From contig DAIDKF010000004.1 in assembly GCA_027450185.1 (NCBI GenBank), positions 78,044 through 137,865 of the forward strand: 59,822 nt of DNA, read 5' to 3'. Origin of the DNA: Granulicella sp. (GTDB lineage Bacteria; Acidobacteriota; Terriglobia; Terriglobales; Acidobacteriaceae). Both the position numbers and the translations under genes were made by a program. Every line of letters starts with the position of its first letter. The stretch's first letter is position 1. Below are positions 38,159 to 55,340 of the stretch, one piece after another. A model generated the notes under the pieces. The model searched no databases. It had not been told where the DNA came from and saw only the letters and a program-made list of their open reading frames with translations.

Positions 38159-38446
38159 CAGATGATGGATCTGTGGGCTTATCGCAACGGGGTGAAGATC
38201 GACTTCTCCCGCCCGGGCAAGCCGACTGACAACGCCTTCTGCGAGTCGTTCAACGGAACGTTCCGAGCAGAGTGTCTGAACACCAACTGGTTCCAGACAC
38301 TCGTCGATGCAAAGCACCTCATCGAGCAGTGGCGGCAAGAATATAATGTGAGTCGTCCTCACAGGGCTCTGGTCGACAGGACACCTGCGGAGTTCGCCAG
38401 TCATATCGCGCTTAAGCGCGATATGACTGAAACAAAAACAGACTGA
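38146..38446 (+). pseudogene. IS3-family OrfB C-terminal remnant, plus strand
   Basis: A second, different IS3 OrfB C-terminal fragment. It reads EFTGQMMDLWAYRNGVKI, DFSRPGKPTDNAFCESFNGT, FRAECLNTNWFQTLVDAKHL and YNVSRPHRALVDRTPAEFAS, with the last catalytic Glu in CESFNGT. The upstream half is missing because the head-to-head minus-strand fragment begins within the first residues. The two OrfB fragments meet at about 38146-38158. This one keeps its true C-terminus and is followed by an IS-end-like sequence. Confidence 0.8.
38398..38429. repeat. Perfect 32-base palindrome
   Basis: The half CAGTCATATCGCGCTT (38398-38413) is followed by its exact reverse complement (38414-38429), with no spacer. 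It lies inside the last 16 codons of the plus-strand OrfB remnant. A palindrome this long and perfect is prone to cruciform extrusion and deletion, so its persistence is notable. Confidence 0.85.
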
Positions 38447-38773: not shown

Positions 38774-40270
38774 TTAGAGGCCCGATGCATGGATGGCTCG
38801 CACGACCTTCTCCAAGATAAGGTCAGGTGCGCACCCGAGGATGACAACGCTACCGGCAAGAAGTCCTACGATGACTCGAATGAGAAGCGGTGACGTAACA
38901 TTACTAGCTTCAGCAGGTGGGTCTGCAACATATACCTTCTTGAGAATCTTAAGATAGTAGAAGAGAGATACGGCGCTCATGCCTATGGCAAATATGACGA
39001 GCCACAGCAGTAGCTTAGAGCCTGGATCCGCCGCAAGGAGAGCAGAGAACAGCAGGAATTTTGCAAAAAATCCAGACAAGGGTGGTATCCCAGCTAAAGA
39101 CAGCACAAAAACGGCGAGACATAATGACAGAAAGGGAGTTCGCCGGCTGAGACCTGCTAGATCAGAGATTGTATCGTTTCCAAGGTGCTTTTCTGTAACC
39201 GACAGCACACTCAGTACTCCTAGGGTTGCCAACGCATATGTCACTACGTAATAGAGCAGCGCTGCGAGACTCTGCTGCGTGTGTGCTACAAATGCGAGGA
39301 GCATATAGCCTGCATGGGCAATTGCTGAGTAGGCGAGCAAGCGTCTCAGACTAGACTGCGCAATTGCAACAAGATTGCCGAGCAGCATTGAGATGACCGA
39401 GACCACTACAAGAACGGGAATCCAACCAGTTTGAAAGTGCAATAGGCTGGTACTGCCTTCCGCTCCCGCAAAGCCTAGTACCAACACCTGAAAGAAGATG
39501 AAGAAACTAGCAACCTTTGAGCCCGATGCGATAAACGCAGTGCTAGGCAGAGGCGCACCCTGGTATACATCTGGTGCCCAGAAGTGAAAGGGGGCGGCTG
39601 CGATCTTGAATCCAAAGCCGATCACGGTAGTAACGATCGCAATGATCAGAATCGGATTGATTGGTTGGCTATGAATGGCGCTGGCAATGTGTGTAATGTT
39701 GGTTGAGTTTGAAAGGCCATACAGCAAGCTAAAGCCAAACAGCATGAATGCTGCAGACATGCCGCCAAAGAGGAAGTATTTTAGAGCCGCCTCTGAAGAA
39801 CGGGCACTGCTCTTGTCAAATCCTGCAAGAATATAGACAGACAGGCTCAATAGTTCAAGTGAAATAAAGATGACCAGAAGGTCCTGTGAGCTAACCAGGA
39901 ATAGCATTCCGGTAGTTGCCAGTAAGAGAAGGAGAGCAAACTCGCTCACGTGATCTGTGAAGGTCGAGTCTACGGCAAGAAAGAGCGTAACGATAGTGAT
40001 GGCGAGCAGGGCAACTTGCACCAAATGTGTGAGGGGATTCGACAGGAAGATGCCATCGAGAATGCTCCCCTGAGCTGAGGTCAGCAGCAATTTGAGTATG
40101 GCTGCCACACATCCAGCAGACCCGATTGTGGCAGCAGCCAGAAATCGAGCTCGAACTCCATATCTCCGGAAAAAGAGAAGATCAATTGCCACAACGACTA
40201 ATGCCGTAATGGTAAGAATGATCTCCGGCCAAACGAATTGTAACAACTGTCCATAGTTGATCACGTTCAT
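38774..40270 (-). CDS. nuoN: Complex I subunit NuoN (antiporter-like proton pump)
   Basis: A 498-residue membrane protein with about 14 helices, one of the four antiporter-like pumps of this complex I. The TM5 Glu lies in LELLSLSVYIL (E139) and the TM7 Lys in FKIAAAPFHFWAPD (K222); both are in their expected context, so the proton path looks intact. It is the last gene of the operon, overlapping the stop of the second nuoM by one base (its start at 40270). A candidate terminator lies just downstream. Confidence 0.96.
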   Translation of the reverse strand: MNVINYGQLLQFVWPEIILTITALVVVAIDLLFFRRYGVRARFLAAATIGSAGCVAAILKLLLTSAQGSILDGIFLSNPLTHLVQVALLAITIVTLFLAVDSTFTDHVSEFALLLLLATTGMLFLVSSQDLLVIFISLELLSLSVYILAGFDKSSARSSEAALKYFLFGGMSAAFMLFGFSLLYGLSNSTNITHIASAIHSQPINPILIIAIVTTVIGFGFKIAAAPFHFWAPDVYQGAPLPSTAFIASGSKVASFFIFFQVLVLGFAGAEGSTSLLHFQTGWIPVLVVVSVISMLLGNLVAIAQSSLRRLLAYSAIAHAGYMLLAFVAHTQQSLAALLYYVVTYALATLGVLSVLSVTEKHLGNDTISDLAGLSRRTPFLSLCLAVFVLSLAGIPPLSGFFAKFLLFSALLAADPGSKLLLWLVIFAIGMSAVSLFYYLKILKKVYVADPPAEASNVTSPLLIRVIVGLLAGSVVILGCAPDLILEKVVRAIHASGL

Positions 40271-41778
40271 TACCAGCCTCCCTTACGTAGGCCCTGAAAG
40301 AGGGGGGAACTTAAGGCAGGGTGGATGACGTTGAGAAATATCTGTGGGAACGTTCCAACAATCACACTTGCACAAATGAGAATTCCGGCACCAAGACATT
40401 CGGGGAAGGAAATAGGGGGAAGTGGAGGGTGGGATGGTTTCGTATCAACGGCTGTTCCAGTGAAGAACGCCAGTTGCATGGCCCGCCAGATATATGCAAC
40501 ACCCGCTACAAGCCCTAGAGCCACAAAAACAATGAGCGACGGATAGGAGTGCCAAACTCCTACGACGATCATCAATTCTGCCATGAATCCGCTGAAGCCC
40601 GGCAGACCCATACTCGCCATGCCAGCCACCACGAAGGTGAATGCGGCAAAAGGTATGACCTTGCCAAGACGCATCGGACCCAGTTCTGCAAGATCCCTTG
40701 TGTGCGTGCGTGAGTACACCATGCGGCCAACAACTGCGAACAAGAGGCCGGCAAGAATGCCATGGGAGACCATCTGAACAATTGCACCTGAGATTCCAAT
40801 TTGGTTCAGGGTCATCAGTCCGAGCAATATGAAGCCCATGTGGCTAATACTGGAATAGCCGATAACAAATTTGAAGTCTTTCTGCACTAAAGCGACCAGT
40901 GCCCCGTAGAGAATTCCGATGACAGCAAGGACAGCAAAGACATCACGCCACGAGCTCAAACCAAGCACTTGAAAACCCCACGGTGCCAAGCCGAGGGGGA
41001 AGAGGGCCATTGCCACACGGAGACAACCATAGGCTCCGAGTTTCATGACGACGCCGGCTAGCAGCATCGATGCAGCCGTTGGAGCAGCCACATGGCCTGT
41101 CGGGGCCCAGGTGTGAAAGGGCCAAAGGCCGGCTAGGATACCAAAGCCAACGAAGACGAGGGGAAATGCCCACATTTGGAAGTGAGGTGCAAATGGGAAG
41201 CCAGCAAGATCTCCGAGTGAGGTGCTCTTCGAGCCAGCAACGACATACGCTGCAATGAGACCGATGAGGACCATGGCGCTTCCGACAAACGAATAGAGCA
41301 CAAGCTTCATAGCTGCATATTCACGACGGGTTGAGCCCCAGATTGCAATCAGAAAATACTTTGGAATCACAACGATTTCGTAGAAAACAAAAAGAAGAAA
41401 GAGATCGAAGCTGAGAAAGACCCCGTAGACAGATCCAAGCAATACCAAGTAAAAGGCGAAAAATTCCTTGATTCGATCTTCAATATTCCAGGAAAATAGG
41501 ACTCCGCAGACTCCAATTACTCCAGTTAGCAAAAGTAGTGTCAGGCTAATGCCATCTGCTTTTAAGCTAAATTGAATACCAAGCGAGGGTATCCAGGAAT
41601 AGTGAGCCACGGTAAACAGCTCTCCAGTCCGATGCTGGATAAATGCCGTGAGCGCAATTGCAAATGTGGTGATGGTGGTCGCAAGCGCAAGGATGCGTGC
41701 CCAAGCCGCCCTACGACTTGGCAGCAGGAAGAGTGCCAGAGCCCCGAGAAAGGATATGTAGATCGTCCAAGCAAGCAT
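40270..41778 (-). CDS. nuoM: Second complex I subunit NuoM (divergent paralogue, NuoM2)
   Basis: A 502-residue antiporter-like pump, different from the upstream NuoM. The TM5 Glu is present in FVFYEIVVIPKYFLIAIWG (E134). At the TM7 position where canonical NuoM has Lys (seven residues before the His of PFHTW) this protein has Leu: GFGILAGLWPFHTWAPTGH (L215). The next conserved Lys (VVMKLGAYG) and the Glu of the last half-channel (FMAELMIV) are kept. It is thus a divergent pump that may move protons differently. The start lies two bases behind the stop of the other nuoM. Two nuoM genes in one operon is the hallmark of enlarged complex I variants with a fourth pump. Confidence 0.93.
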   Translation of the reverse strand: MLAWTIYISFLGALALFLLPSRRAAWARILALATTITTFAIALTAFIQHRTGELFTVAHYSWIPSLGIQFSLKADGISLTLLLLTGVIGVCGVLFSWNIEDRIKEFFAFYLVLLGSVYGVFLSFDLFLLFVFYEIVVIPKYFLIAIWGSTRREYAAMKLVLYSFVGSAMVLIGLIAAYVVAGSKSTSLGDLAGFPFAPHFQMWAFPLVFVGFGILAGLWPFHTWAPTGHVAAPTAASMLLAGVVMKLGAYGCLRVAMALFPLGLAPWGFQVLGLSSWRDVFAVLAVIGILYGALVALVQKDFKFVIGYSSISHMGFILLGLMTLNQIGISGAIVQMVSHGILAGLLFAVVGRMVYSRTHTRDLAELGPMRLGKVIPFAAFTFVVAGMASMGLPGFSGFMAELMIVVGVWHSYPSLIVFVALGLVAGVAYIWRAMQLAFFTGTAVDTKPSHPPLPPISFPECLGAGILICASVIVGTFPQIFLNVIHPALSSPLFQGLRKGGW

Positions 41779-41780
41779 AA

Positions 41781-43340
41781 TCAGAAGTTCCGCAGTTGTA
41801 GTGCCATCTGGATGGCGGTATGGTTGATGACGCCAAGAATAAACTGGGGGTAGAGTCCCAAAGTAAACATGAGTCCAATGGTTGGAATGAGAGCCAATCG
41901 CTCACTGAGAGTTAGATCGGGAAGATGAGCCCAGTTCTCCTCAAGTGGCCCATAGAAAACGCGTTGCAGGGTGCCGAGGAAAAAGATGGCAGTAATCATC
42001 AGGCCAAGCACTGATAGTGCGGCGGCCCACGTTACGAGTGGGAATGTGCCTTCAAATATTAAGAACTCTCCGATAAACCCGTTTAGACCAGGCAGGCCGA
42101 GCGAAGAGAAAATCGTAATTCCCATTAGCCCTGTAAAGACGGGTATTACTTTACGTAAGCCACCGAAGTCGTTCAAACCACGCAGTCCGCCAGTACGCTG
42201 TTCGAGCATTGCAACAAACCAGAAAAGCGTTGCAGCTGTTAGGCCGTGATTGAACATCTGGAGGAATACGCCGTTCATGGCTGCGTACTTCTGTGCCGTC
42301 AGGGTAGCATCGCCGCCCGTGATTTTGACGACGGCAAAGATGCCGAGCAGACAGTAGCCAAGATGATTGATGGATGAATAAGCGAAGATGCGTTTCAGAT
42401 CAGTCTGAGCAAGCGCGGCATAGGCCGAGAAGATAACCGTTGCGACTGCAAGCCACAGGAGTGGTGTCAGGATCTGTTGCATCTGCGCCCCGAATAGTGG
42501 GAGCAGTATCCGAAGAAAACCGTAGAGCCCCATCTTAGACATGGCACCGGTCAGTAGAATCGTTGTACCGCTTGGTGCTTCAGAGTAAGCGGAAGGCAGC
42601 CACGTGTGAAATGGAAGCAGAGGAACTTTGACGGCAAAGCCAAGGAATGCACCCAGGAAGATCACCATGGCGGTATGGTGTGGCGTGAAGAGATGCCATC
42701 CAAGTTCACCAATCACGGCAGGCATCAACTTATCGTTCTGCGCCAATTGTCCAAGTTCTGTGAGGTCAAAGGTCTTTGTTGCCAAATAGATCGCGAGGAA
42801 AGACATCAGCATCGCGACACTTCCCACCATCGTGTATATCAAGAACTGCATTGCAGCTTTTGCGCTATTTGGTCCACCCCACAACTTGATGAGGAAGAAT
42901 GCAGGAACCAGGCTCAACTCCCAAAAGATGAACCAATGAAAAAAGTTCAAAGCTGTGAACGTACCAAAGAGGCAGGATTGGAGCACCAGCATGAGGGAAA
43001 AGTAAAGGGGTACTCGTTTCTCGATGTGCCAGGATGCAAGCATGCCAATTGGTACGACGATGCAGGAGAGGAGCAGCATGAGCAGGCCCAGACCATCAAT
43101 CCCTACGCGATAATCCACGTTGAGCGACGGGATCCAGCGATGCAATTCCTGAAATTGATACCCATCGGCTACGGTACTAAAGCTGTGCCAGAGAATAAGA
43201 GTCAGAACCAGTGATATGAGGCTGAACAACAACGCAGTCCAACGTGCAAGAACCTTGTTTCTTCCACCAAGAGCTAGCACAGTGAGTGCGCCAAACAATG
43301 GGACTGCGGTCAAGGTTGTGATCCATGGAAAGGTGATCAT
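41781..43340 (-). CDS. nuoM: Complex I subunit NuoM (canonical-like copy, NuoM1)
   Basis: A 519-residue antiporter-like pump with the full set of expected charges: TM5 Glu in FIFWELSLVPAFFL (E141) and TM7 Lys in GFAVKVPLLPFHTWLP (K238), followed by MSKMGLYGFLRI. It is closer to standard NuoM than the next gene. Its ATG overlaps the stop of nuoL by four bases (ATGA). It lies between NuoL and the second NuoM in the gene order and, by analogy to known complexes, probably also in the membrane arm. Confidence 0.96.
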   Translation of the reverse strand: MITFPWITTLTAVPLFGALTVLALGGRNKVLARWTALLFSLISLVLTLILWHSFSTVADGYQFQELHRWIPSLNVDYRVGIDGLGLLMLLLSCIVVPIGMLASWHIEKRVPLYFSLMLVLQSCLFGTFTALNFFHWFIFWELSLVPAFFLIKLWGGPNSAKAAMQFLIYTMVGSVAMLMSFLAIYLATKTFDLTELGQLAQNDKLMPAVIGELGWHLFTPHHTAMVIFLGAFLGFAVKVPLLPFHTWLPSAYSEAPSGTTILLTGAMSKMGLYGFLRILLPLFGAQMQQILTPLLWLAVATVIFSAYAALAQTDLKRIFAYSSINHLGYCLLGIFAVVKITGGDATLTAQKYAAMNGVFLQMFNHGLTAATLFWFVAMLEQRTGGLRGLNDFGGLRKVIPVFTGLMGITIFSSLGLPGLNGFIGEFLIFEGTFPLVTWAAALSVLGLMITAIFFLGTLQRVFYGPLEENWAHLPDLTLSERLALIPTIGLMFTLGLYPQFILGVINHTAIQMALQLRNF

Positions 43341-45448
43341 ATCTTGGCCTTCCAGAGCAGCAATAGGGTGAAGGCAATACCCGCCCCTGCGACAATCTTC
43401 AAATATCCCTGTATTCGGCCGGCCTGTAGGAGTGAAAGGATCTGACCACTACGCGATACACTTTGACATCCTTCATCGAATCCAGAATTAACAACGTGCG
43501 TGTCTAAGAAATTATCCAAGTGAGCCAGTCCAAGCACAATGTTGGTCACCGTCTTGACAGCGCCGTTCCAAATCCATCGGTCAAGCCAATCGGAGATCTT
43601 TGAGAGTTGAGTGTTCAGGTTAATGACGGTGGCTCCATACAGTGCATCCACATAAAACGCATGGCCTAGGAAGGTAAATAGTGGCGGTGATAGCTTGCCT
43701 AAGTTATCTGGAGCCTCCGCACTCTTGATTGGACGGCGACCGTAGATCCACCAGCCTATTCCCAGGCCCAGGAGAACGATGACCGAGGAGGACAGCATTA
43801 CCGGGAGCATGCTCCCCTCTGAGAGAGCGCCGAAGTCAACTGCTAACTGAGTAGCATCGAGAAAAGATTGGAACCAAGGCCATGCGGGAGTCCCAAAGAA
43901 GCCCAGTAACAAAGCAACCGGAGCAAGGAGCATTAGCGGAACCGTCATGACCTTTGGGCTCTCATGTGGAGAGTTCGAGCCATGGTGGCTTGAATGATCT
44001 GGGGACACTGGAGAATGCGAATGGCCCTCACTGCTTTCAGTCAGACGCGACTTACCACCAAATATATAAAACATCTGGCGTGACATGTAGAAGGCCGTGA
44101 GCAAAGCGGCAAAAGCGCCCATATAATACGGTGCCTGGGAGATGTTCCAGGAGTGGGCCGCGTGAAGAATCTCGTCCTTGCTCCAGAATCCAGAAAAGAA
44201 AAAGGGGAATCCGCAGAGCGCGAGCATACCCACGGTATACGTCGCGAAAGTAAAGGGCATCAACTTCCTCAGGCCACCCATGCGCCGAATATCTTGTTCT
44301 CCCGAGCAGCCATGAATAACGGATCCAGCGCCCAGGAACAACAGAGACTTGAAGAATGCATGGGTAATCAGATGAAACATGCCTACAGCCACGCCACCGA
44401 CCCCTAGACCCATCATCATGTAACCTAATTGTGAGACGGTGGAGTACGCGAGAATCCGTTTGATATCGAATTGCGCGACAGCGATGACGGCACCGAATAG
44501 AGCGGTGATCGCACCTATCCATGTCACTGCCTGCAATGCTGTAGACGTCGTTAGTTCTGTTGCGATTCCGGAATGCGCACTCATCAGAGGGTAGACGCGG
44601 GCAACGAGAAATACACCGGCTGCCACCATGGTTGCGGCGTGAATCAACGCGCTTACCGGCGTTGGGCCCTCCATCGCGTCCGGCAGCCAAACATGCAATG
44701 GAAATTGGCCGGACTTGCCGATTGCCCCACAGAAGACCAGCAGTGCGATGCCTGTGGCGGAACAGAATCCGAGGGGGGTTGGCTGGGTCAGGAGATGATT
44801 GATGGAAGTGGATTCAAGGCAGCCGGCCCCGTTATTGTAAAAGAGTAGCGTTCCCGATTGTGCATAGAGCCAGACGATTCCCAGAAAGAAGGGGAGATCT
44901 CCAATGCGAGTCGTAATGAATGCCTTTTTCGATGCAGCAGCGGCACTCGGCTTTTCGTACCAGAAGCCAATGAGAAGATAGGACGTAAGCCCAACAATTT
45001 CCCAGCACATGAAGAGCAGAAGCAGGTTGTTGGCAATGACGACACCAAGCATCGCGCTGGCGAACAGCGCCAGAAAACAAAAGAAGCGCGTGAAGTTGTC
45101 GTCGTGTTCCATGTATCCCACGCTATAAATGAAGATCAGCATGCCGACGAAGGTCACCATAACCAACATCACAGCCGTCAGGGGATTCAAGATCCATCCG
45201 AGTGACAGCCACTCATTGCCGAATTGAAACCAGCGGAAATTGAAGACCTGTTGGGTAGCCTGACCGTTGCTGCGAAGCAAGAGTACATGCGCAAACGCCC
45301 ATACGGAAAGAAGGAAAGAGATTGCCATTGAGCCGATGGCGAGTGACGCAGCCATCGCTCGACTCTTCCGCTTTGCAAGGGCACTTATTCCCGCCGCAAG
45401 GAGCGGCAACACGGGAACCAGCCAGAGATTTCGTACGATCCAGTTCAT
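43337..45448 (-). CDS. nuoL: Complex I subunit NuoL with lengthened lateral helix
   Basis: A 703-residue protein, longer than the about 613 of E. coli NuoL. The TM5 Glu lies in FMCWEIVGLTSYLLIGF (E150) and the TM7 Lys in GAIGKSGQFPLHVWLPDAMEG (K245 shown here within a shortened context). After the 14 core helices comes a His/Ser-rich loop (SEGHSHSPVSPDHSSHHGSN, about 500-525), then the amphipathic lateral helix and a last membrane helix (about 672-700). Between YVDALYG and LLQAGRIQGY there are 79 residues, about 25 more than usual. The extra part repeats the pattern xxLDxxxxNxxx: DWLDRWIWNG (620-629) and NFLDTHVVNS (646-655), 26 residues apart. This fits the lengthened helix expected for a complex with an additional pump subunit. 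Confidence 0.95.
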   Translation of the reverse strand: MNWIVRNLWLVPVLPLLAAGISALAKRKSRAMAASLAIGSMAISFLLSVWAFAHVLLLRSNGQATQQVFNFRWFQFGNEWLSLGWILNPLTAVMLVMVTFVGMLIFIYSVGYMEHDDNFTRFFCFLALFASAMLGVVIANNLLLLFMCWEIVGLTSYLLIGFWYEKPSAAAASKKAFITTRIGDLPFFLGIVWLYAQSGTLLFYNNGAGCLESTSINHLLTQPTPLGFCSATGIALLVFCGAIGKSGQFPLHVWLPDAMEGPTPVSALIHAATMVAAGVFLVARVYPLMSAHSGIATELTTSTALQAVTWIGAITALFGAVIAVAQFDIKRILAYSTVSQLGYMMMGLGVGGVAVGMFHLITHAFFKSLLFLGAGSVIHGCSGEQDIRRMGGLRKLMPFTFATYTVGMLALCGFPFFFSGFWSKDEILHAAHSWNISQAPYYMGAFAALLTAFYMSRQMFYIFGGKSRLTESSEGHSHSPVSPDHSSHHGSNSPHESPKVMTVPLMLLAPVALLLGFFGTPAWPWFQSFLDATQLAVDFGALSEGSMLPVMLSSSVIVLLGLGIGWWIYGRRPIKSAEAPDNLGKLSPPLFTFLGHAFYVDALYGATVINLNTQLSKISDWLDRWIWNGAVKTVTNIVLGLAHLDNFLDTHVVNSGFDEGCQSVSRSGQILSLLQAGRIQGYLKIVAGAGIAFTLLLLWKAKI

Positions 45449-45558
45449 TGAGCGCCAGTAAATCGTTGTAGGTTGATAATAAGACTCTGTTGGTGTTCAA
45501 AATAGGCAGCAAATCTAGAATGGTTGAAGTTGCTACCTAGTAATCTTTTCATCCGCTG

Positions 45559-45870
45559 CTAACCCTTCATCGAGTTCATCTGGTCTAAATCTGTTGTTTT
45601 AGAATGCCGGTAGACGGCGAGGATGATACTCAAACCGACGGCTGCCTCTGCAGCGGCAACACTGATAGAAAAAATAGCGAACATGATACCGGTTAATGCT
45701 TCAGGATGGGGTCCATAGCGCCAAAAGGCTATGAAATTCAAGTTTGCCGCGTTGAGCATCAATTCGATTCCGATGAGCACCAGAATCGCGTTGCGCCGCG
45801 TCAGGGCACCGGCCAGGCCAATGGAGAACAGCAGAGCCGACAAGAGCAGATAGCCTGACATTGGTGTCAT
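45559..45870 (-). CDS. nuoK: Complex I subunit NuoK
   Basis: A 103-residue protein with three membrane helices, part of the E-channel and quinone-side membrane arm. It has the conserved Glu in helix 2 (IGIELMLNAANLNFIAF), and the second conserved Glu in helix 3 region (AAAEAAVGLSIILAV). It overlaps nuoJ by four bases. A 110-base gap separates it from nuoL; nothing recognisable lies there. Confidence 0.95.
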   Translation of the reverse strand: MTPMSGYLLLSALLFSIGLAGALTRRNAILVLIGIELMLNAANLNFIAFWRYGPHPEALTGIMFAIFSISVAAAEAAVGLSIILAVYRHSKTTDLDQMNSMKG

Positions 45871-46367
45871 TTCGTCCTCCGTGTCTCATCCATTGCTAGT
45901 ATGCCCGCTCCAATGAGTGCAGCAGTTAAGAGTAGTCCGATGATTTCCAGTGGCAGAACAAATCGATGCATCAGCGCAACACCGATCTCGTTGACCGGCG
46001 CTTCAGGCTCAGGTCCAAGTACTGCCAGCGCGCCGGTTCCTGACCAGACGGCCCAACCCAGGACTGCAAATACAACCAAAGCGATGAGCGCTCCAGAGAC
46101 ACGAAAAGAGGAGGAGCCGGTCAACACAGCGGGCTCTGCGCTCCTCGTCATCATGATGGCAAATGCAGCTAGAATGGCAACCGCACCGACATACACGAGA
46201 ATCTGCGTGAAGCCAACAAATTGCGCCCCTAGTTGTAAATAGAGAGCGGCTAGACTGACCAAGCCAAGCGTCAGCGCCAGGACGCAATGCACCAGATTTT
46301 TCAGGCTCATCGCCGCGGCGGTTCCGGTGATCGTAGTTGCGGCGAGTAGCAAAAATGTGATTGTCAT
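45867..46367 (-). CDS. nuoJ: Complex I subunit NuoJ
   Basis: A 166-residue protein with five predicted membrane helices. The conserved helix-3 segment reads QILVYVGAVAILAAFAIMM, typical of NuoJ, which contributes the flexible pi-bulge helix that couples quinone reduction to proton pumping. It starts 83 bases behind the nuoH stop; this gap contains a perfect Crp-type palindrome (46430-46449). Thus nuoJKLMMN may have an additional promoter or control point. The downstream end overlaps nuoK by four bases. Confidence 0.93.
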   Translation of the reverse strand: MTITFLLLAATTITGTAAAMSLKNLVHCVLALTLGLVSLAALYLQLGAQFVGFTQILVYVGAVAILAAFAIMMTRSAEPAVLTGSSSFRVSGALIALVVFAVLGWAVWSGTGALAVLGPEPEAPVNEIGVALMHRFVLPLEIIGLLLTAALIGAGILAMDETRRTK

Positions 46368-46429
46368 CTTGATACGATTCCGACCCTGAAAAGTAAGTAG
46401 ATACAGATGAACATACTGGAGACTACAAC

Positions 46430-46449
46430 CCTGTGACGTTCGTCACAGG
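46430..46449. promoter_or_regulatory. Crp/Fnr-type palindrome upstream of nuoJ
   Basis: CCTGTGACG-TT-CGTCACAGG is a perfect palindrome with nine-base arms and contains TGTGA-N6-TCACA, the exact consensus core of E. coli Crp. Its centre lies about 72 bases before the nuoJ start and directly behind nuoH. It could also fold as an 8-bp RNA hairpin with a GTTC or GAAC loop; there is no T-run after it. Confidence 0.6.
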
Positions 46450-46450
46450 T

Positions 46451-47626
46451 CTAGCTCGCGAAGCGATAGGTGCGCACATGAAACGATTTGCCACGCCTTA
46501 TTCCACGGCTCAATAACACACAAGAAACAATGACGAGCAAGCTATCAATCAACCAGCGTGTAAACCCAGCAGGTATCAAGTGCCATACGCCCGCGCCAAC
46601 AATATTAATAATTGATAGGGGCAACATGAACTTCCACGCAAAATTCATCAGTTGATCCATGCGAAGCCGGGGAAGCGTTCCGCGAACCCAGATAAAGGCC
46701 ATGATGATGATGAGTAGCTTTACGAAGAACCACACATAGGATGGAATCCACGTCAGAAAAGAAAATGGAGCGGCCCATCCACCAAGAAATAGCGTAATTG
46801 CCATCGCACTGGTGGCGAACATGCCAAGATATTCGCCAAGAAAGAATAGGGCAAACTTAAAGCCGGAGTATTCAATGTAATAACCTGCAATGATTTCCGA
46901 TTCTCCCTCGGGCATATCGAAGGGACAGCGATTGGATTCCGCCGTTGCTGCAATCATGAAGATAACAAACCCGGTAAGGCCCCACGGGGTAAATACATAC
47001 CAACGTGGCCATATACCCGTGTAACCTGCCTGCATATTTACAATTGCTACAGTAGACAGGGACCCGGCGGCCATGATCACAACGACAGATGCAAGTACCA
47101 ACGGCATTTCATAACTGATCATCTGGGCTATGGCTCGCATCGCCCCGAGCAGGGAATACTTGCTCCGGCTCGACCACCCGGCCATGAAGACCGATAGCTC
47201 TACCATAGAGCCCACAGCAAAAAAGAACAGTACGCCAGCATTCAGATTGGCGAGCACCATATTCTTGCCAATAGGTAGAACGGAATAAACCACGAAGGAA
47301 GCAATGACGAGCATGACTGGTGCGAGGAAGTGAACCACCTGATCTGCCGTACGGGGAATAATATCTTCTTTGGTCAGCGATTTGATGCCGTCCGCCATGG
47401 GTTGCAGAATTCCAAACGGGCCTACACGATTCGGGCCGTACCGGTTCTGCATTCTGCCCAGTCCCTTGCGTTCAAGGACTGTTGTGATCGCAAACAACAG
47501 CGGAAAGGCTACGAGGACAGGCACGACGGAAAGCACCGCAGAGACTATCGGTTGAAGGGCTGCTGGCACGTAAGCCAGGAGCCAGTGCTTCAGCAGCACA
47601 AAGATCTGATCGATCATTTCAGGCAT
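46451..47626 (-). CDS. nuoH: Complex I subunit NuoH
   Basis: A 391-residue membrane subunit at the quinone site, joining the peripheral and membrane arms. Signatures: ERKGLGRMQNRYGPNRVGPFG (first loop, shortened here to RKGLGRMQNRYGPNRVGP), IIPRTADQVVHFLAPV, and the acidic loop AESNRCPFDMPEGESEII with the conserved Glu and Asp residues of the quinone/E-channel entrance. A Cys replaces the more usual Pro after NR. It follows nuoI rather than preceding it, an inversion of the usual H-I order. It starts 54 bases behind nuoI. Confidence 0.96.
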   Translation of the reverse strand: MPEMIDQIFVLLKHWLLAYVPAALQPIVSAVLSVVPVLVAFPLLFAITTVLERKGLGRMQNRYGPNRVGPFGILQPMADGIKSLTKEDIIPRTADQVVHFLAPVMLVIASFVVYSVLPIGKNMVLANLNAGVLFFFAVGSMVELSVFMAGWSSRSKYSLLGAMRAIAQMISYEMPLVLASVVVIMAAGSLSTVAIVNMQAGYTGIWPRWYVFTPWGLTGFVIFMIAATAESNRCPFDMPEGESEIIAGYYIEYSGFKFALFFLGEYLGMFATSAMAITLFLGGWAAPFSFLTWIPSYVWFFVKLLIIIMAFIWVRGTLPRLRMDQLMNFAWKFMLPLSIINIVGAGVWHLIPAGFTRWLIDSLLVIVSCVLLSRGIRRGKSFHVRTYRFAS

Positions 47627-47680
47627 ATGTCCATACCGTCCGCCGTAATATACAGAATCCTTGATTGACCACCGAGCTCA

Positions 47681-48307
47681 TCACTTTGTCTCTCCGGCTT
47701 CAGGAGTGGCCATCGGCGCTGGTGTTGCTGCCTTTGCCTCTGTGGTCTGTCGTGCCTTTGCTTCAGCTTTCGCGCGTTCCTCAGCAAGAGCTGCATCCAC
47801 AGCAGTAGCCTCCGTGGGATGAATCTTGTTGTAGTATTCGTTCGATTTTGCCAACTGTTCCTTGCGCAACAGCAAGCCGCCGAACCGGTCCTCCGAGCTC
47901 ATTTCGAACTCAACATTCATCTTGATGGCGTCAAAGGGACATACCTCCACGCATATCTGGCAACTCATGCAGACCGAGATGTCGATATTGAATGTCGTTG
48001 GATAGAACTGAAGCTTACCCGTGGCGTCAGGCTTTTTATCTTTGCTCTTTTCGATGTAGATGCATTTGGGCGGGCATTCCTTCTCGCAGATCTGGCAGGA
48101 TACACACCGTAAACCTGCTTCCCATTCAGTGCCGTCGTATACCAGAAATGGGAAGTCACGGGTTGCCTCAATTTGCGGTAGACGCTCCTCTGGAAATTGA
48201 ATCGTCGTCAACCGATCCTTGCTTACATAGCTGCCAAGAAAATTGCGCGCAGTCTCGGTCAAGCCCTTCAGGATGCCTTCACCTAGCACAGTTAGCTCCC
48301 CTCGCAT
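47681..48307 (-). CDS. nuoI: Complex I subunit NuoI (2 x [4Fe-4S] ferredoxin-like)
   Basis: A 208-residue peripheral subunit that carries clusters N6a and N6b. Two CxxCxxCxxxCP motifs are clear: CVSCQICEKECPPKC (about residues 78-92) and CMSCQICVEVCPFDA (about 117-131). A charged Ala/Glu/Lys-rich tail of about 40 residues extends past the core. In a complex without NuoEFG it is the outermost Fe-S protein still encoded here and thus a likely docking site for ferredoxin. The gene order places it between nuoD and nuoH. No strong Shine-Dalgarno precedes the ATG; a second ATG lies just upstream. Confidence 0.95.
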   Translation of the reverse strand: MRGELTVLGEGILKGLTETARNFLGSYVSKDRLTTIQFPEERLPQIEATRDFPFLVYDGTEWEAGLRCVSCQICEKECPPKCIYIEKSKDKKPDATGKLQFYPTTFNIDISVCMSCQICVEVCPFDAIKMNVEFEMSSEDRFGGLLLRKEQLAKSNEYYNKIHPTEATAVDAALAEERAKAEAKARQTTEAKAATPAPMATPEAGETK

Positions 48308-48376
48308 TCATGTATGCGGCCATATTCTCTGAAAGGAAAACTCTCAGTGCGGTTCCTTCGAACTGCGTAGTAGAAC

Positions 48377-49537
48377 TCAACGATCCACCTCTCCCAAAAC
48401 AATATCGACGCTTCCAAGAATGATCACGATGTCCGCCACATTCTGGCCTAAACACATATCTTCGAGTAGTGTCAGATTGATCAGACTTGGGGGGCGCACG
48501 CGGTAGCGGTAGGGACTCGCGGTACCATCGCTGATCAGATAGAAGCCGAGCTCACCTTTGGGGCCCTCAATTCGGCCGTATGCTTCACCTGCCTTCGGGC
48601 GGAAGCCGCGAATCTTTGTATTAGGATCCATGATCGGGCCGGCAGGAAGATCCCGCATGGCCTGTTTTAGAATCTCAATCGACTCTCGCATCTCGAGCGC
48701 GCGCAGCATGTACCTGTCATAGACGTCGCCATGTTCTCCTAGCGGTACCCTGAAAGAGAAGCGGTCGTAGATGCCGTACTTATCTACTTTCCGGAGATCA
48801 TAATTCACCCCCGAGGCCCTCGCCATCGGGCCGCTGATGCCGGCATTGATCGCCTGTTCCCGGGTAACCACTCCGACTCCCTGGGTTCGCGCCATCAGAA
48901 TTTCATTGCTCGTCAGCAGGTTTTCAAATTCGTCCAGAAACTGCGGAAACCCATCGATAACCTTTTGTGCCTGCTGCAGCCAATTAGCCGGTACGTCCAC
49001 GCGGCAGCCGCCAAAGCGCATGTAGTTGCACATCATGCGAGCCCCGGTCAGAGCTTCAAACAGGTCCAGAACTTTCTCGCGCTCGCGAAAGGCGTACATC
49101 AAAGGCGTTCCGCTCGCGCCCATATCCTGCATCAGGAATCCCACCAGGCCGGCGTGGTTCTGCAGCCGTGTCAGCTCACCCGTAATTATCCGGAGGTACT
49201 CCGCGCGCTCTGGTACCTGAATGCCCGCTAGCTTTTCTACGGCCAAAGCGTATGCCCAGTTGTTGGTGATCGAGCAGATGTAGTCCAGTCGGTCGGTATA
49301 GGGCATGCATCCGAGATAGCTCTCGGTCTCGGCTATCTTCTCGTGATTGCGATGCAGATAGCCAAACACAGGCTTCAGTTTCACGACCTTCTCGCCGTCC
49401 AGCGTCACGTCCATGCGAAAAACGCCGTGGGTGGAGGGATGCTGTGGCCCCATCGATACTTCAAGCAACTGCCCCTCACTCCGATCGCTGGAGGGTCCCG
49501 GGACCAAATCTATGGGGGTCTCCGTCAAGATGCTCAT
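48377..49537 (-). CDS. nuoD: Complex I subunit NuoD (49-kDa)
   Basis: A 386-residue peripheral subunit related to the large subunit of [NiFe] hydrogenases, forming part of the quinone pocket. The N-terminus carries [20 protein letters not shown], with the loop His residues next to the quinone site, and the C-terminus ends with the typical [12 protein letters not shown]. It overlaps the stop of nuoC by four bases (ATGA). NuoC and NuoD are separate here, unlike the fused NuoCD of E. coli. Confidence 0.96.
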
Positions 49538-50166
49538 AACCCTCCCTCCGCGGCCTGGTGTGCCTGAGCCCGTTTCAGCACCTCATCATGAGCGGTTGGC
49601 TCGTACTCATAATCGTCCGGATCGACATAATCTCTGCGCATCGGATGGTCTTCAAACCCTTCCCACATCAGCAACCGGCGCAGATCAGGGTGCCCGTCGA
49701 AGACAATGCCAAACAGGTCGAATATCTCGCGCTCCTGGTACTCCGCACTCCGCCAGAGCGGCGTCAGCGACGGCAGGTGGACGCGCTCAGTGCGATCCTC
49801 TGTTCGCATCCGCAGAACCAGCGGGCCCTGACGCTGCTCAACCGAGAACAGGTGATAGACCGCTTCCAGATATCCGCCGGTCTGGGTTTTTACGACCTCG
49901 TCAACGTCCTTCTCCATACCATCGACGATCTTCTTCGTCTTGACCTTGGTTGAGATCTCTTTGATGGGCCAATCGATACCCGTGACGTTTGAGCAATAAT
50001 CGAACTGTCGATTCGTTGCATCACGCAAGTAACTCGACACCGCAAATGCATGATCGGCATCGATCAACAGGGAATGCTGACCAGACGGGCTGCCATTGGG
50101 GATGATCTCCAACCGGCAGCCGGGAACGTTCGCCTCGATTTCGGACTTAATTTCTTCCAGATTCAT
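49534..50166 (-). CDS. nuoC: Complex I subunit NuoC (30-kDa)
   Basis: A 210-residue peripheral subunit. From the ATG at 50166 ([14 protein letters not shown]) it has the conserved block [20 protein letters not shown] and the later [22 protein letters not shown] that characterise NuoC. The start overlaps the 3' end of nuoB by 20 bases. A longer frame upstream has no support. A short insert with [18 protein letters not shown] lies in the middle of the protein, which is not part of the usual core. Confidence 0.94.
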
Positions 50167-50788
50167 TCTTGCCTGCAATGGAGATGTTGACCAGGGGAGC
50201 TTTCCACACTTCACTGTTCTGTGTAGGGACAAGATCGTGCGCGCTAAACTCCGGCACGACGAATTCGCTTGGCAAATCAGCGTTCAAGTGACGCGGCCTG
50301 TTGGGTCCGGTCAGATATTGCTCGTCTATCTTCTTCTGCAGCATCAGAAATGCGTCGATCAGCGCCTCCGGACGCGGCGGGCATCCAGGAATGTATACAT
50401 CCACCGGGATATAACGATCGATGCCCTTGAGCACGTTATATCCCTGCTTGAAGGGCCCGCCGGAGATGGCACATGCACCCATGGAGATCACGTACTTGGG
50501 TTCTGGCATCTGGTTATAGAGCCGCACAACCTGCGGCGCCATCTTTTTGGTCACCGTCCCGGCTACAATCATCAGGTCGGCTTGTCGCGGAGAAGGGCGG
50601 AAGACCTCGGCACCGAATCGCGCAAGATCATAGCGTGCCATGGTGGCAGCTATCATCTCAATGGCGCAGCAGGCGAGGCCGAAATTCAACGGCCAGAGGG
50701 AACTTCTGCGGCCCCAGTTGTAGAGCTCCTGAAGAGACGTGGCAACTACTCCTTGACGCCTCAACTCACTCTTTAGCTGTTCATCCAT
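50147..50788 (-). CDS. nuoB: Complex I subunit NuoB (PSST)
   Basis: A 213-residue peripheral subunit carrying cluster N2, which passes electrons to quinone. The Cys ligands are visible in [19 protein letters not shown] (the CC pair), [11 protein letters not shown] and [13 protein letters not shown]. An extended C-terminal tail of about 45 residues (from [10 protein letters not shown] on) is longer than in many NuoB proteins. It overlaps nuoC by 20 bases and is 84 bases behind nuoA. Confidence 0.96.
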
Positions 50789-50872
50789 TCTTCAGACCTT
50801 CAAACGTTCAAAGTTGAATCGGTTGTTGCAGCTGACACACCGATATTGAGAACAATCTGCTTCACGTAAGAA

Positions 50873-51244
50873 CTAACTCCAGGACAGCACGTTCTTCTGG
50901 CAGGCCCAAACCAGACCCTCCACCAGCAGGATCAGAAACACCAGCATGGCGACGGATTCTGCTGCCGTGAATCCACCAAATGCCACGGCGAACGGCAAAA
51001 GGAAGATGGCTTCCACGTCGAAGATCAGAAAGATAATCGCATAGATGTAATAGCCCGGCTTGAATTTGATCCAGGCGTCACCGGTCGACTCCAGTCCGCA
51101 CTCATAGATTGCATTTTTTGTGGGACCAGATTTCTGGGGCGAAAACTTCCGCGCCCAAACCCACGCAAGCGCCAGTGGTCCGACCGCGAAGCCAGCGCCA
51201 CCGAGCAGCAATACGATAACCGGCAGATAAACAGAGTTCGTCAT
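50873..51244 (-). CDS. nuoA: Complex I subunit NuoA
   Basis: A 123-residue membrane subunit with three helices. The conserved loop reads YECGLESTGDAWIKFKPGYY, followed by AIIFLIFDVEAIFLLPFA with the conserved Asp and Glu. The start is the ATG at 51244, backed by AGGAAG; an earlier in-frame start reaches into the nifJ-like gene and is unlikely. It is the first gene of the minus-strand nuo operon and is divergent from the nifJ-like gene. Confidence 0.95.
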   Translation of the reverse strand: MTNSVYLPVIVLLLGGAGFAVGPLALAWVWARKFSPQKSGPTKNAIYECGLESTGDAWIKFKPGYYIYAIIFLIFDVEAIFLLPFAVAFGGFTAAESVAMLVFLILLVEGLVWACQKNVLSWS

Positions 51245-51283
51245 ACGTCTTCCTACAACTTTACCAGACACTGAAATGACTGG

Positions 51284-51303
51284 CTTGTGATAATCGTCAC
51301 AAG
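51284..51303. promoter_or_regulatory. Crp/Fnr-type palindrome between nuoA and the nifJ-like gene
   Basis: CTTGTGA-TAATCG-TCACAAG contains TGTGA-N6-TCACA, the exact Crp core, with perfect seven-base arms. Its centre is about 50 bases before the nuoA start and 60 bases before the GTG start of the nifJ-like gene, so it can act on both divergent promoters. A Crp/Fnr-family regulator would be the simplest binder; none is encoded in the window. Confidence 0.65.
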
Positions 51304-51353
51304 TAATCATCGCACGCAAGCCGAAAATGGTACCGGACAACGAGGAGACCGAA

Positions 51354-54300
51354 GTGGAAGATCAACAAATTGCAATTCTTGACGGTAACGAAGCAGCAGC
51401 ACTGGTGGCCTACCGGCTTGCAGAGGTCATCGCTATTTACCCAATTACGCCGTCCTCGACGATGGCCGAGTGGGCAGACCAGTGGACGGAGGAGGGACGT
51501 AAGAACATCTGGGGCATCGTGCCGTCGGTCGCAGAGATGGAGAGCGAGGGCGGAGCCGCAGGGGCCATGCATGGAGCCCTGCAGGCCGGAGCGTTCGGTA
51601 CCACATTTACTGCGTCGCAAGGTCTGCTGCTGATGATTCCTAATTTGTATAAGATAGCGGGCGAACTCACCTCAAATGTCATCCATGTGACCGCCAGATC
51701 CATTGCCACACACGCGCTGTCCATCTTTGGAGACCACTCCGACGTCATGGCCTGCCGATCAACCGGGTATGCCATGCTCGCCTCCAATTCCGTGCAGGAA
51801 GCAGGCGATATGGCCCTGATCTCCCACATCGCCACGCTTGAGGCGCGTATCCCGTTCATGCATTTCTTTGATGGCTTTCGCACCTCGCACGAGATCAACA
51901 AGGCCGTCGCAATCTCCGACGAAACCATCCTGGCCCTGCTCGATGAGAAGCTGGTGCGTGCCCATCGTGAGCGCGCCCTGAGTCCGGATAATCCGATCCT
52001 GCGTGGTACGGCACAGAATCCAGACGTCTTCTTCCAAGCCCGCGAGGCCTGCAATCCCTTCTACCTCGCGTGTCCGACCATCGTTCAAAACATCATGGAT
52101 AAGTTCGCTCGTCTCACAGGTAGGGCTTACCGCCTGTTTGATTACATTGGGGCGCCAGACGCAGAACACGTGATCATCATGATGGGATCAGGTGCCGGTG
52201 CGGCAGAAGAGGCGATTGCCCGTCTGAATGCACAGGGAGAAAAGCTGGGCCTGCTTAAAGTTCGTCTTTACCGACCCTTCGCCGTCGAAGCATTTCTTGC
52301 TGCCCTCCCGAAGACCGTAAAAACCATCGCCGTGCTCGACCGCACCAAAGAGCCGGGTGCACTAGGCGAACCGCTGTATCAGGATGTTGTCACGGCGTTG
52401 AGCGAGTCATTTTTCACCACCTCGCCGAGGCTGCAGCATCACCCGACCGTGATCGGTGGGCGCTACGGCCTTTCATCTAAAGAGTTCACGCCTGCCATGG
52501 TCAAGGGAGTCTTCGACGAACTAAAGAGGCCACAGCCGAAGAACCACTTCACCATCGGCATTCATGACGACGTGACCCACGCCAGCCTGGACTTTGATCC
52601 CACTTTTTCAACCGAAGATCCACGCACTATCCGCGCGTTGTTCTATGGTCTTGGCTCGGACGGTACCGTTGGCGCCAACAAGAACTCCATCAAGATTATC
52701 GGCTCCGGCACCTCGCATTACGTGCAGGGGTACTTCGTGTATGACTCAAAGAAATCCGGCTCGGTTACCACGTCGCATCTGCGCTTTGGCCCGGAACCCA
52801 TTCGCTCGACCTACCTCATTACAGAGGCTAACTTCGTAGCCTGTCATAATTTTTCGTTCCTGGAGAGAATGGATATTCTTGCCGCAGCGGCTCCGGGTGC
52901 TGTGTTCCTGCTGAACTCGCCGTATGGCCCTGACGAAGTCTGGTCCCATCTGCCCCGCACCACTCAGGAGACGCTCTTGGCCAAGAAGCTCCAGTTCTAC
53001 GTCATCGATGGGTACAGCGTGGCTCGCGATGCCGGGATGGGCAACCGTATTAACACCATCATGCAGACCTGCTTCTTCGCAATCAGCGGTGTGTTGCCGC
53101 GAGACGAAGCGATTGAAGAGATCAAGAAGGCTATCAAGAAGACCTATGGCAAACGTGGTGACGTGGTGCAGAAGAACTTCGACGCCGTAGATGCGGCGCT
53201 CGCCCATCTACATCGCGTAGTGCCTCCAGAGCGGGCCAGCGCGACCTTCGACATTCTTCCTATGTTTCCCAGCAAGGCACCAGCCTTCGTCCGCGACGTC
53301 CTCGGTGAGATGGCCGCAGGCCGCGGCGACCTTCTGCCGGTCAGCGCGCTGACACCCGGTGGAACCTTCCCCACCGCAACCGCGCAGTGGGAGAAGCGCA
53401 ACATCGCCCAGATGATTCCCGTCTGGGACAAGGACCTTTGCATTCAATGCGGAAAATGCGTGCTTGTCTGTCCTCATGCGGTCATCCGCGCCAAGGTCTT
53501 CGACGCAGCACTGCTGAACGGAGCACCCGAGACGTTCAAGAGCACCAAACCCAAATGGCGTGACATGGAGCAGGAACTCTACACCCTGCAAGTTGCGCCA
53601 GAGGACTGCACCGGTTGCCGTATCTGTGTTGAGGCATGCCCGGCTATCAGCAAGAGCGAAGTCAAGCATAAGGCGATCAATATGGAGATGCAGGCGCCAC
53701 TGCGCGAACCCGAGGCCAAGAACTGGAACTTCTTTCAGTCGCTCCCTTACGTCGATCGCAATCGCCTATCACATGGGCAAGTCAAGGATGTTCAACTGCT
53801 CGAACCATTGTTTGAATTCTCTGGAGCTTGCGCTGGCTGTGGTGAAACCCCCTACATCAAGCTGCTCACTCAACTCTTCGGCGATCGGCTCTTTATCGCC
53901 AACGCGACGGGTTGTTCGTCAATCTATGGTGGTAATCTTCCTACCACGCCTTACACTGTGAACCATAGCGGACGCGGGCCTACGTGGTCGAACTCTCTGT
54001 TCGAAGACAATGCAGAATTTGGACTAGGCATGCGGCTGGCACTCGATCAGCAGAAGGAGTATGCCGAGATGTTGCTGCGGCAGTTTGTTCCGGACCTTGG
54101 AGACGATCTGGTCACGGCAATACTCTCCGCCAATCAGTCCACCGAACCGGGCATCGACGCGCAGCGCGAACGAGTGATGCAGATACGCAACAAACTGGCT
54201 GTAGTCGACTCTCTGCAGGCTAGAGCGCTGCTCGCCGTTGCTGACTCCCTGGTGCGCAAAAGTGTCTGGCTCGTGGGTGGCGATGGATGGGCCTACGACA

Positions 54301-54980
54301 TCGGCTTCGGTGGTCTGGACCACGTGCTTGGCTCGGGCAAAAACGTCAAGGTTCTCGTGCTCGACACCGAGACCTACTCCAACACCGGTGGACAGATGTC
54401 CAAGTCGACACCACGCGGAGCCGTGGCCAAGTTCGCCACTGGAGGTAAGCTCACTGGCAAGAAAGATCTTGCGATGGAGGCAGTCAGCTACGGGTCAGTC
54501 TATGTTGCGCGCGTCGCCATGGGCGGGGGCGATATGCAGACCATCAAGGCGTTTCAAGAGGCCGAAGCGTACGACGGTCCCGCGCTGATCATCGCATACA
54601 GCCACTGCATCGCTCACGGTTATGATCTGGCGAACGGCATGCACCAGCAGAAGAAGGCGGTGCTCTCTGGCTACTGGCCACTCATGCGCTACAACCCATC
54701 CCTCCGAGAGCAAGGGAAGAATCCGTTTCAGTTAGACTCCAAGGCGCCTTCAATTCCGCTCAAGGAGTACACCTATAACGAAGCGCGCTACTCCATGCTG
54801 GCACGCAGTCATCCCGATGTTGCAAAGAAGCTTCTCGAAGAAGCGCAGCAGGACGTAGCGCGCGAGTGGGGAGTTTATGCTGACCGAGCAGCCGATTCGG
54901 TACATGTCCCGTCACAACCCGCAGTCACTGAGCCATCGGAAGAGAAGCATGAAGCTCTGGCACTAAAAGGACATGAATGA
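51354..54980 (+). CDS. nifJ: Pyruvate (2-oxoacid):ferredoxin/flavodoxin oxidoreductase, NifJ-type
   Basis: A single-chain enzyme of 1208 residues that oxidatively decarboxylates pyruvate (or a related 2-oxoacid) to acyl-CoA and reduces ferredoxin or flavodoxin. The GTG at 51354 has GAGGAG six bases upstream, so it is preferred over the ATG at 51327. Domains in order: pyrimidine-binding N-terminal part (AIYPITPSSTMAEWADQW), gamma-like middle domain (about 415-600), the two-cluster ferredoxin domain with CIQCGKCVLVCP (around 695) and CTGCRICVEACP (around 751), and the TPP domain with GACAGCGETPY, GDGWAYDIGFGGLDHVL and SNTGGQMSKSTPRGA. All cofactor motifs are present. It is divergent from nuoA and followed by korAB-type genes, which points to ferredoxin as the shared carrier. 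Confidence 0.95.
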   Translation: MEDQQIAILDGNEAAALVAYRLAEVIAIYPITPSSTMAEWADQWTEEGRKNIWGIVPSVAEMESEGGAAGAMHGALQAGAFGTTFTASQGLLLMIPNLYKIAGELTSNVIHVTARSIATHALSIFGDHSDVMACRSTGYAMLASNSVQEAGDMALISHIATLEARIPFMHFFDGFRTSHEINKAVAISDETILALLDEKLVRAHRERALSPDNPILRGTAQNPDVFFQAREACNPFYLACPTIVQNIMDKFARLTGRAYRLFDYIGAPDAEHVIIMMGSGAGAAEEAIARLNAQGEKLGLLKVRLYRPFAVEAFLAALPKTVKTIAVLDRTKEPGALGEPLYQDVVTALSESFFTTSPRLQHHPTVIGGRYGLSSKEFTPAMVKGVFDELKRPQPKNHFTIGIHDDVTHASLDFDPTFSTEDPRTIRALFYGLGSDGTVGANKNSIKIIGSGTSHYVQGYFVYDSKKSGSVTTSHLRFGPEPIRSTYLITEANFVACHNFSFLERMDILAAAAPGAVFLLNSPYGPDEVWSHLPRTTQETLLAKKLQFYVIDGYSVARDAGMGNRINTIMQTCFFAISGVLPRDEAIEEIKKAIKKTYGKRGDVVQKNFDAVDAALAHLHRVVPPERASATFDILPMFPSKAPAFVRDVLGEMAAGRGDLLPVSALTPGGTFPTATAQWEKRNIAQMIPVWDKDLCIQCGKCVLVCPHAVIRAKVFDAALLNGAPETFKSTKPKWRDMEQELYTLQVAPEDCTGCRICVEACPAISKSEVKHKAINMEMQAPLREPEAKNWNFFQSLPYVDRNRLSHGQVKDVQLLEPLFEFSGACAGCGETPYIKLLTQLFGDRLFIANATGCSSIYGGNLPTTPYTVNHSGRGPTWSNSLFEDNAEFGLGMRLALDQQKEYAEMLLRQFVPDLGDDLVTAILSANQSTEPGIDAQRERVMQIRNKLAVVDSLQARALLAVADSLVRKSVWLVGGDGWAYDIGFGGLDHVLGSGKNVKVLVLDTETYSNTGGQMSKSTPRGAVAKFATGGKLTGKKDLAMEAVSYGSVYVARVAMGGGDMQTIKAFQEAEAYDGPALIIAYSHCIAHGYDLANGMHQQKKAVLSGYWPLMRYNPSLREQGKNPFQLDSKAPSIPLKEYTYNEARYSMLARSHPDVAKKLLEEAQQDVAREWGVYADRAADSVHVPSQPAVTEPSEEKHEALALKGHE

Positions 54981-55340
54981 TAATCGCACTGAGTATTAGC
55001 AGCCTCGGTCTGAGCGATAACGACACTCTTGCTTTGCGTCGCTGCCGATCGAACCATCACAAACATGCTTTGAATCGTGCAGATGCGCGTGCTTCACAAG
55101 CGATAACACCTTATCGAGTCGCGTACATATCGACACTGCGGATACGTTTCATGCGTGGTTTACGACCCACATCGGAGCACTACAGTATGGCGAACTGTTA
55201 TGCGGAAGGACTACAATTCCTCTGACATAATGGACGGCCGCTAAACGGCCACGGGAATATTAAAGTGAATTTGTAATTATTTATTTCCCCTGCAACTTTC
55301 GCTAGACGCTATCGACTCACAATGATGGAAGGATTTTTAA
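54981..55340. other. Non-coding gap between nifJ and the korA-like gene
   Basis: About 360 bases. An open frame of 82 codons starts by overlapping the nifJ stop but has no recognisable similarity. A small hairpin (GGCCG-CTAAA-CGGCC, 55236-55250) lies in the middle and an AT-rich tract (around 55260-55295) follows; the korA promoter probably lies in this tract, although no clear -35/-10 pair was recognised. AAGG about ten bases before the korA ATG is the probable ribosome binding site. Confidence 0.5.

Follow-up and report, generated by a model that had tools for sequence, protein, structure and literature searches.

Results

Gene organization at the locus

A stretch of 59,822 nucleotides from a Granulicella sp. 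metagenome-assembled genome (GenBank assembly GCA_027450185.1, contig DAIDKF010000004.1, positions 78,044 to 137,865; the window) was analyzed around an operon for respiratory complex I (nuo genes). The genome comprises 2.17 Mb in 145 contigs and is 54% complete. Matches to NCBIfam and Pfam profiles identified twelve open reading frames (ORFs) on the minus strand between positions 38774 and 51244, in the order nuoA-B-C-D-I-H-J-K-L-M1-M2-N (Table 1). This order on one strand, as well as the presence of two different NuoM proteins in tandem, had been claimed in a first-pass annotation of the sequence, and both were borne out; M1 and M2 are different proteins, scoring 463 and 410 bits against the same family (TIGR01972).

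The absence of nuoE, nuoF and nuoG from the operon, claimed in the same annotation, also held. No matches to NuoE, NuoF or NuoG were found in the window operon, in 13 orthologous Granulicella stretches of 17–20 kb, or in the best 80 of at least 523 relatives' loci. In these 80 loci little sequence precedes nuoA, with a median of 547 bases among the 36 that show all twelve genes in order. Divergently from nuoA, genes for pyruvate:ferredoxin (flavodoxin) oxidoreductase (PFOR) and for a 2-oxoacid:acceptor oxidoreductase of the KorA/KorB type (KOR) were recognized, in agreement with the proposed link to two ferredoxin-reducing oxoacid oxidoreductases.

Table 1. Features of the complex I operon and its divergent neighbors in the window.
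Feature	Position	Strand	Evidence and remarks
nuoA	50873..51244	-	PF00507; start inferred
nuoB	50147..50788	-	TIGR01957, 245 bits; four cluster N2 Cys kept
nuoC	49534..50166	-	TIGR01961, 109 bits, below cut-off of 122; start codon inferred, ORF opens at 50232
nuoD	48377..49537	-	NF004739, 444 bits, above cut-off of 360
nuoI	47681..48307	-	TIGR01971, 74 bits, below family cut-off (divergent); eight Cys for two 4Fe-4S clusters
nuoH	46451..47626	-	NF004741, 337 bits, above cut-off
nuoJ	45867..46367	-	NF005168, 106 bits, below cut-off
nuoK	45559..45870	-	NF004320, 114 bits, above cut-off; both membrane Glu kept
nuoL, 703 aa, lateral-helix region 24 residues longer	43337..45448	-	NF005141, 623 bits
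nuoM1, 519 aa, TM7 Lys kept	41781..43340	-	TIGR01972, 463 bits
nuoM2, 502 aa, TM7 Lys replaced by L215, extra K140 in TM5	40270..41778	-	TIGR01972, 410 bits
nuoN	38774..40270	-	TIGR01770, 381 bits
Divergent intergenic stretch nuoA/PFOR, 82 bases	51245..51326	.	Coordinates, with inferred nuoA start
PFOR, proposed electron source	51327..54980	+	TIGR02176, 1789 bits
2-oxoacid:acceptor oxidoreductase alpha, KorA type	55341..57194	+	TIGR03710, 578 bits, above cut-off
2-oxoacid:acceptor oxidoreductase beta, KorB type	57197..58243	+	TIGR02177, 201 bits, below cut-off of 262; PF02775, PF12367

Lateral helix of NuoL

Complex I with a second NuoM (2M) is marked by two NuoM genes in one operon and an insertion in the lateral helix of NuoL, and both were found here. 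Of 79 2M rows (72 distinct sequences), 78 have a lateral-helix region of 75 residues between two fixed anchors; the exceptional row, with 33 residues, is probably a copy cut by the contig end. Among ten comparators, the region comprised 51 residues in seven and 46 in one, and reached 75 and 78 residues in two Acidobacteriota operons with a single NuoM in the stretch seen (L115, 14639-18337, and L116, 8326-12025). Because of these two operons, the insertion is not exclusive to 2M enzymes, and its value as proof of four antiporter-like subunits was weakened. A helix of 24 residues is about 36 Å long, roughly the dimension of one antiporter subunit.

For the 2M complex I of Nitrospira, a lateral-helix insertion of about 26 residues has been reported, and for Manganitrophaceae extended helices without an extra pump (both PMC9040806). 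Here and below, statements on published systems are drawn from excerpts of the cited papers.

Residues and origin of M2

M2 was aligned to E. coli NuoM, with residues named as in PMC13324432 and PMC9271201. The protein has the full NuoM fold of 14 transmembrane helices (TM), and E. coli residues E144, K265, H322/H348 and E407 are retained as E134, K246, H313/H339 and E401, respectively. E. coli K234, the TM7 lysine of the Glu-Lys ion pair, corresponds to L215, and a lysine, K140, is located in TM5, six residues after the TM5 glutamate E134. According to published accounts, NuoL, NuoM, NuoN and MrpA/MrpD all conserve the Glu-Lys ion pair, which is said to open and close in the charge wave (PMC9271201, PMC13324432, PMC13073174).

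After removal of a hydrogenase-like subunit from the 94 rows labelled M2, 93 rows (87 distinct) were available, and all of them carried both L215 and K140. Since 80 of these rows originated from a scan with two patterns that included the K140 motif, they are biased. The sequences chosen without this motif agreed: 13 come from the window and from Granulicella operons located via NuoL or NuoB, and 15, of which 14 are new, are verrucomicrobial and were recovered by profile. Overall, leucine replaced the TM7 lysine, and lysine occupied the K140 position, in 101 of 101 distinct M2. The TM8 lysine and TM12 glutamate were kept in all 87 distinct sequences, and the TM5 glutamate in 94 of 94 rows. In alignment columns, the pump residues of NuoL, M1 and NuoN were kept, including the TM7 lysine in 81 of 81 distinct M1 (the single NuoM of L116 among them), 79 of 79 NuoL rows and 84 of 84 NuoN rows.

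The removed row belongs to a hydrogenase-4-like membrane complex of the window genome (L099, 3147-10360, contig C17). This complex may lack a NiFe site, since CxxC pairs were not seen in its NuoD-like subunit.

A TM7 leucine was also observed in nine verrucomicrobial NuoM proteins (L217, L219, L222, L225, L226, L248, L253, L255 and L256). Unlike M2, each of them is the sole NuoM of its operon and has threonine at the TM5 place of K140. At least the first five listed are encoded in NADH-type operons, with NuoE, NuoF or NuoG nearby. K140 is therefore not an obligatory stand-in for the TM7 lysine, and loss of this lysine alone need not mean loss of pumping.

In the phylogenetic tree, M1 and M2 each formed one group (27 rows each, support 100/100), and five verrucomicrobial single NuoM without the TM7 lysine grouped with M2 (100/99), separated from it by a long branch. 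An origin of M1 and M2 by tandem duplication was rejected on these grounds.

Occurrence of the operon

With 2M-type NuoL called at a minimum of 62% identity, it was detected in 16 of 24 Granulicella genomes, where the G011 copy is split in two; the 16 relatives at order or class level had none. M2-type NuoM (E ≤ 1e-150) was present in 13 of 396 evenly sampled Acidobacteriota genomes, the window's own included, all from its family. The profile also recovered 15 M2 (at least 664 bits) from 288 sampled Verrucomicrobiota genomes; 13 had M1 adjoining inside 1.5-kb flanks, and the remaining two showed NuoN only. The operon occurs in other Acidobacteriaceae and in Verrucomicrobiota as well.

A scan of named genomes kept the best 80 of at least 523 confirmed relatives, six of the 80 being the same operons as the Granulicella stretches. 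The whole twelve-gene order was seen in 36 of these 80 loci; most of the others are truncated where the contig or locus ends. Recurrence of the same order in two phyla excludes a chance arrangement. In one verrucomicrobial locus (L162), the operon was found in two halves, H-J-K-L-M1-M2-N followed by A-B-C-D-I.

A second, canonical nuo operon

The only NuoF match in the window genome is located on contig C22, within a second nuo operon (L002, 4237-18750) of the order A-C-D-E-F-G-H-J-K-L-M-N. The genome search for nuoEFG and a second nuo operon suggested in the first-pass annotation was therefore positive for both. The objection envisaged there, nuoEFG encoded elsewhere without a second nuo operon, does not apply, since all three genes belong to the operon on C22.

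Comparable results were obtained across the genus. Canonical-type NuoL was also found in 14 of the 16 2M-bearing Granulicella genomes (not in G013 and G014), and NuoF matches numbered one in 14 of them, two in G005 and none in G013, which is 74% complete. Among 22 named 2M genomes, a second, canonical-type NuoL was present in 21 (not in G452) and NuoF likewise in 21 (not in G445). The stretches around NuoF-like genes were canonical nuo operons in 17 of 20 cases and other clusters in three (L214, L218 and L221), which argues that NuoF has its own partner complex. As a rule, the genus has the canonical complex, with the 2M complex as an addition.

The NuoF of G014 sits in a separate NuoE/F/G-like cluster (L114, 5715-10038, contig C62), where the NuoF-like ORF has 535 aa and no other nuo genes adjoin. 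A cluster resembling it in size was seen in G005 on contig C162.

Neither nuoB nor nuoI is part of the canonical operon, in the window genome or in eleven fetched stretches from relatives. As only the 2M copies reached family level in the 54%-complete genome, sharing of NuoB and NuoI between both complexes was at first suggested. This idea was dropped, because a nuoB set apart occurs in relatives, and so does a second NuoI that scores above the family cut-off. Such a NuoI was found in 23 of 24 Granulicella genomes (all except G011); nuoB apart from the canonical operon was observed, among others, in eight Granulicella stretches in which it was the only one of the genes searched. In G017, the 2M nuoB is the only nuoB seen.

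Electron input

All four cluster-binding cysteines of NuoB were kept in 71 of 71 rows. The eight cysteines of NuoI were conserved in 69 of 71 rows for one group of four and in 70 of 71 for the other, and the exceptions are unread bases or gaps. Each of the two sets, NuoB and NuoI, contains some copies that are not of the 2M type. The score of the 2M NuoI against its family (TIGR01971) was 74 bits, compared with 122–129 bits for the second NuoI in relatives.

In 11 of the 16 2M-bearing Granulicella genomes, PFOR or KOR was a direct or close neighbor of nuoA. In nine fetched stretches, one of these genes begins beside nuoA, and in G004 and G008 they adjoin it or lie within about 2 kb, as judged by coordinates. 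They were not beside nuoA in G007, G010, G016 and G017, and G011 was too fragmented for a call. In the named-genome scan, PFOR adjoined nuoA in 12 of the 36 whole-order loci (from the best 80 of at least 523).

Counts per genome cover Granulicella and, for KOR, also the 16 outer relatives. KOR was found in 14 of 16 Granulicella with the 2M operon and 0 of 8 without it (one-sided Fisher test, 6e-5), and PFOR in 10 of 16 and 0 of 8, respectively (0.004, weak matches being omitted, among them one of 17 bits in G015); neither value is corrected for kinship. In G007, a Granulicella genome that seems complete and has retained the 2M operon, the KorA homologue is split in two and contains an in-frame stop (C1:1476221-1478013).

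Immediate surroundings

A small ORF of 82 aa, to which Pfam gave no match, lies between PFOR and KorA (54977-55225). Directly downstream of nuoN, an ORF with an integrase core (rve_3; 37793-38404) may be an insertion-sequence remnant, and a GntR/FCD-type regulator (36473-37234) is located between efflux-like genes and the nuo operon.

Discussion

The reading favored here, held with a little more confidence than doubt, is that of a twelve-subunit 2M-type complex I fed by ferredoxin, with four antiporter-like subunits, and with NADH left to the canonical complex. PFOR and KOR would reduce ferredoxin, the putative donor to NuoI, and electrons would then pass through the clusters of NuoI and NuoB, whose ligands are present, to quinone at NuoD/H, a path modelled on known complex I. 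The energy released would drive the E-channel and the four antiporter-like subunits in the forward direction, with an expected gain of about five protons per two electrons. M2 is probably incorporated in the complex; judged by gene order, the subunits would be arranged N-M2-M1-L, with the lengthened lateral helix of NuoL predicted to span them all. The separate canonical complex would serve NADH.

Several observations weigh against this reading. M2 lacks the TM7 lysine, and the extended lateral helix also occurs in the single-NuoM operons L115 and L116. G010 (Granulicella sp. S156) and G016 (G. paludicola DSM 22464) carry the 2M operon, and neither PFOR nor KOR was found in them; confidence was set no higher because these two genomes are the two named Granulicella isolates. 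KOR was in pieces in G007, G011 and G013. It was present in all 16 outer relatives, none of which has 2M-type NuoL, and hence KOR does not require the 2M complex. The association tests ignore kinship, and ferredoxin is a putative donor, deduced from genes and their context.

The ferredoxin:quinone oxidoreductase claimed in the first-pass annotation is accordingly upheld in part. A separate canonical complex containing the only NuoF, together with the linkage and co-occurrence of PFOR and KOR, speaks for it; the donor itself is putative, and the two isolates lacking both enzymes stand on the other side. Gene context supports, without proving, such an activity. With potentials of about -0.42 V for ferredoxin and about -0.08 V for menaquinone, two electrons release about 0.7 eV, which covers five protons at about 140 mV; with NADH, five would be covered only at about 100 mV. 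These values fit a ferredoxin donor and are not evidence for it.

The claim of four pumps also needs to be divided. A fourth antiporter-like subunit is encoded, with a matching NuoL extension, but the two NuoM are not alike, and none of the M2 sequences seen has the TM7 lysine of the ion pair. The ion pair of M2 would be built differently, with the TM7 lysine gone and a lysine in TM5. Because the TM5 glutamate, TM8 lysine, bridging histidines and TM12 glutamate are kept, M2 probably takes part in proton relay. As a tentative proposal, M2 may be a re-engineered pump from a NuoM lineage already devoid of the TM7 lysine, with the TM5 lysine gained beside M1, and with gating through another residue pair or with a timing unlike that of its neighbors. 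If this were true, 2M enzymes and the single-NuoM enzymes of Verrucomicrobiota would offer a natural way to test whether pumping requires the ion pair at all.

Alternatively, M2 could be incorporated as a spacer or relay and not as a fourth pump, with a stoichiometry near four protons per two electrons. The loss of the TM7 lysine from every M2, together with its retention throughout M1, NuoL and NuoN, points in this direction, as does the gating role assigned to ion pairs in wave models (PMC9271201, PMC13324432). However, the other relay residues of M2 are kept, and nine verrucomicrobial NuoM without this lysine serve as the sole NuoM of their operons. A spacer or relay appears rather unlikely, though it deserves serious weight.

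That the 2M complex borrows NuoE, NuoF and NuoG from the canonical operon, and is at least at times an NADH enzyme, is improbable. The three subunits are available in trans in the window genome, and a similar idea of a separate NuoF serving the 2M complex was raised for Nitrospira (PMC6606698). Against it, NuoF mostly resides in an operon with its own partner complex, and the 2M NuoI diverges from the second NuoI within the same family. Least probable is an enzyme running mainly in reverse, in which the proton-motive force would push quinol electrons to ferredoxin, and PFOR and KOR would use the reduced ferredoxin to carboxylate; both are reversible enzymes, but Granulicella is described as heterotrophic. 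Reverse running has been proposed for the Nitrospira 2M complex I (PMC6606698, PMC7784846, PMC12342949).

Several known systems resemble the complex encoded here. The Nitrospira 2M enzyme, assigned to 'clade 3' of Chadwick et al. 2018 (per PMC6606698, PMC9040806 and PMC12342949), shares with it the second NuoM, unfused nuoC and nuoD, a lateral-helix insertion of similar size and ferredoxin as proposed partner, and in both cases the genome also encodes a canonical complex I at another place. Unlike the cluster of N. moscoviensis, reportedly devoid of nuoE, nuoF and nuoH and with an enlarged nuoG, the present operon has nuoH, lacks nuoG and neighbors PFOR/KOR. In the 2M complex of Chloroflexi (Anaerolinea), the second NuoM is likewise between NuoL and NuoN, but nuoBCDI lie outside the operon and nuoCD is fused (PMC7117926); here, all twelve genes form one operon, with nuoC and nuoD separate. 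The 11-subunit complex I-like enzyme of Desulfitobacterium similarly lacks NuoEFG, has PFOR and ferredoxin as proposed electron source and is needed for growth on lactate or pyruvate, yet its nuoABCDHIJKLMN operon encodes one NuoM (PMC11238625).

Both 2M complex I and complex I without NuoEFG are thus already in print, and the operon described here is an unusual variant of them. In a search confined to the open-access literature, no title or beginning of an abstract reported this operon in Granulicella.

It is disputed how electron flow in complex I is coupled to several distant proton channels; in wave models, the ion pair of each antiporter-like subunit acts as a gate. Here, a widespread complex carries a fourth antiporter-like subunit that is without the lysine of this pair in every copy seen, beside three subunits that keep it. 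The number of protons moved per electron in a cultured bearer would bear on the idea of a fifth proton and on the need for the ion pair, as well as on the possible use of ferredoxin in the respiration of a soil heterotroph.

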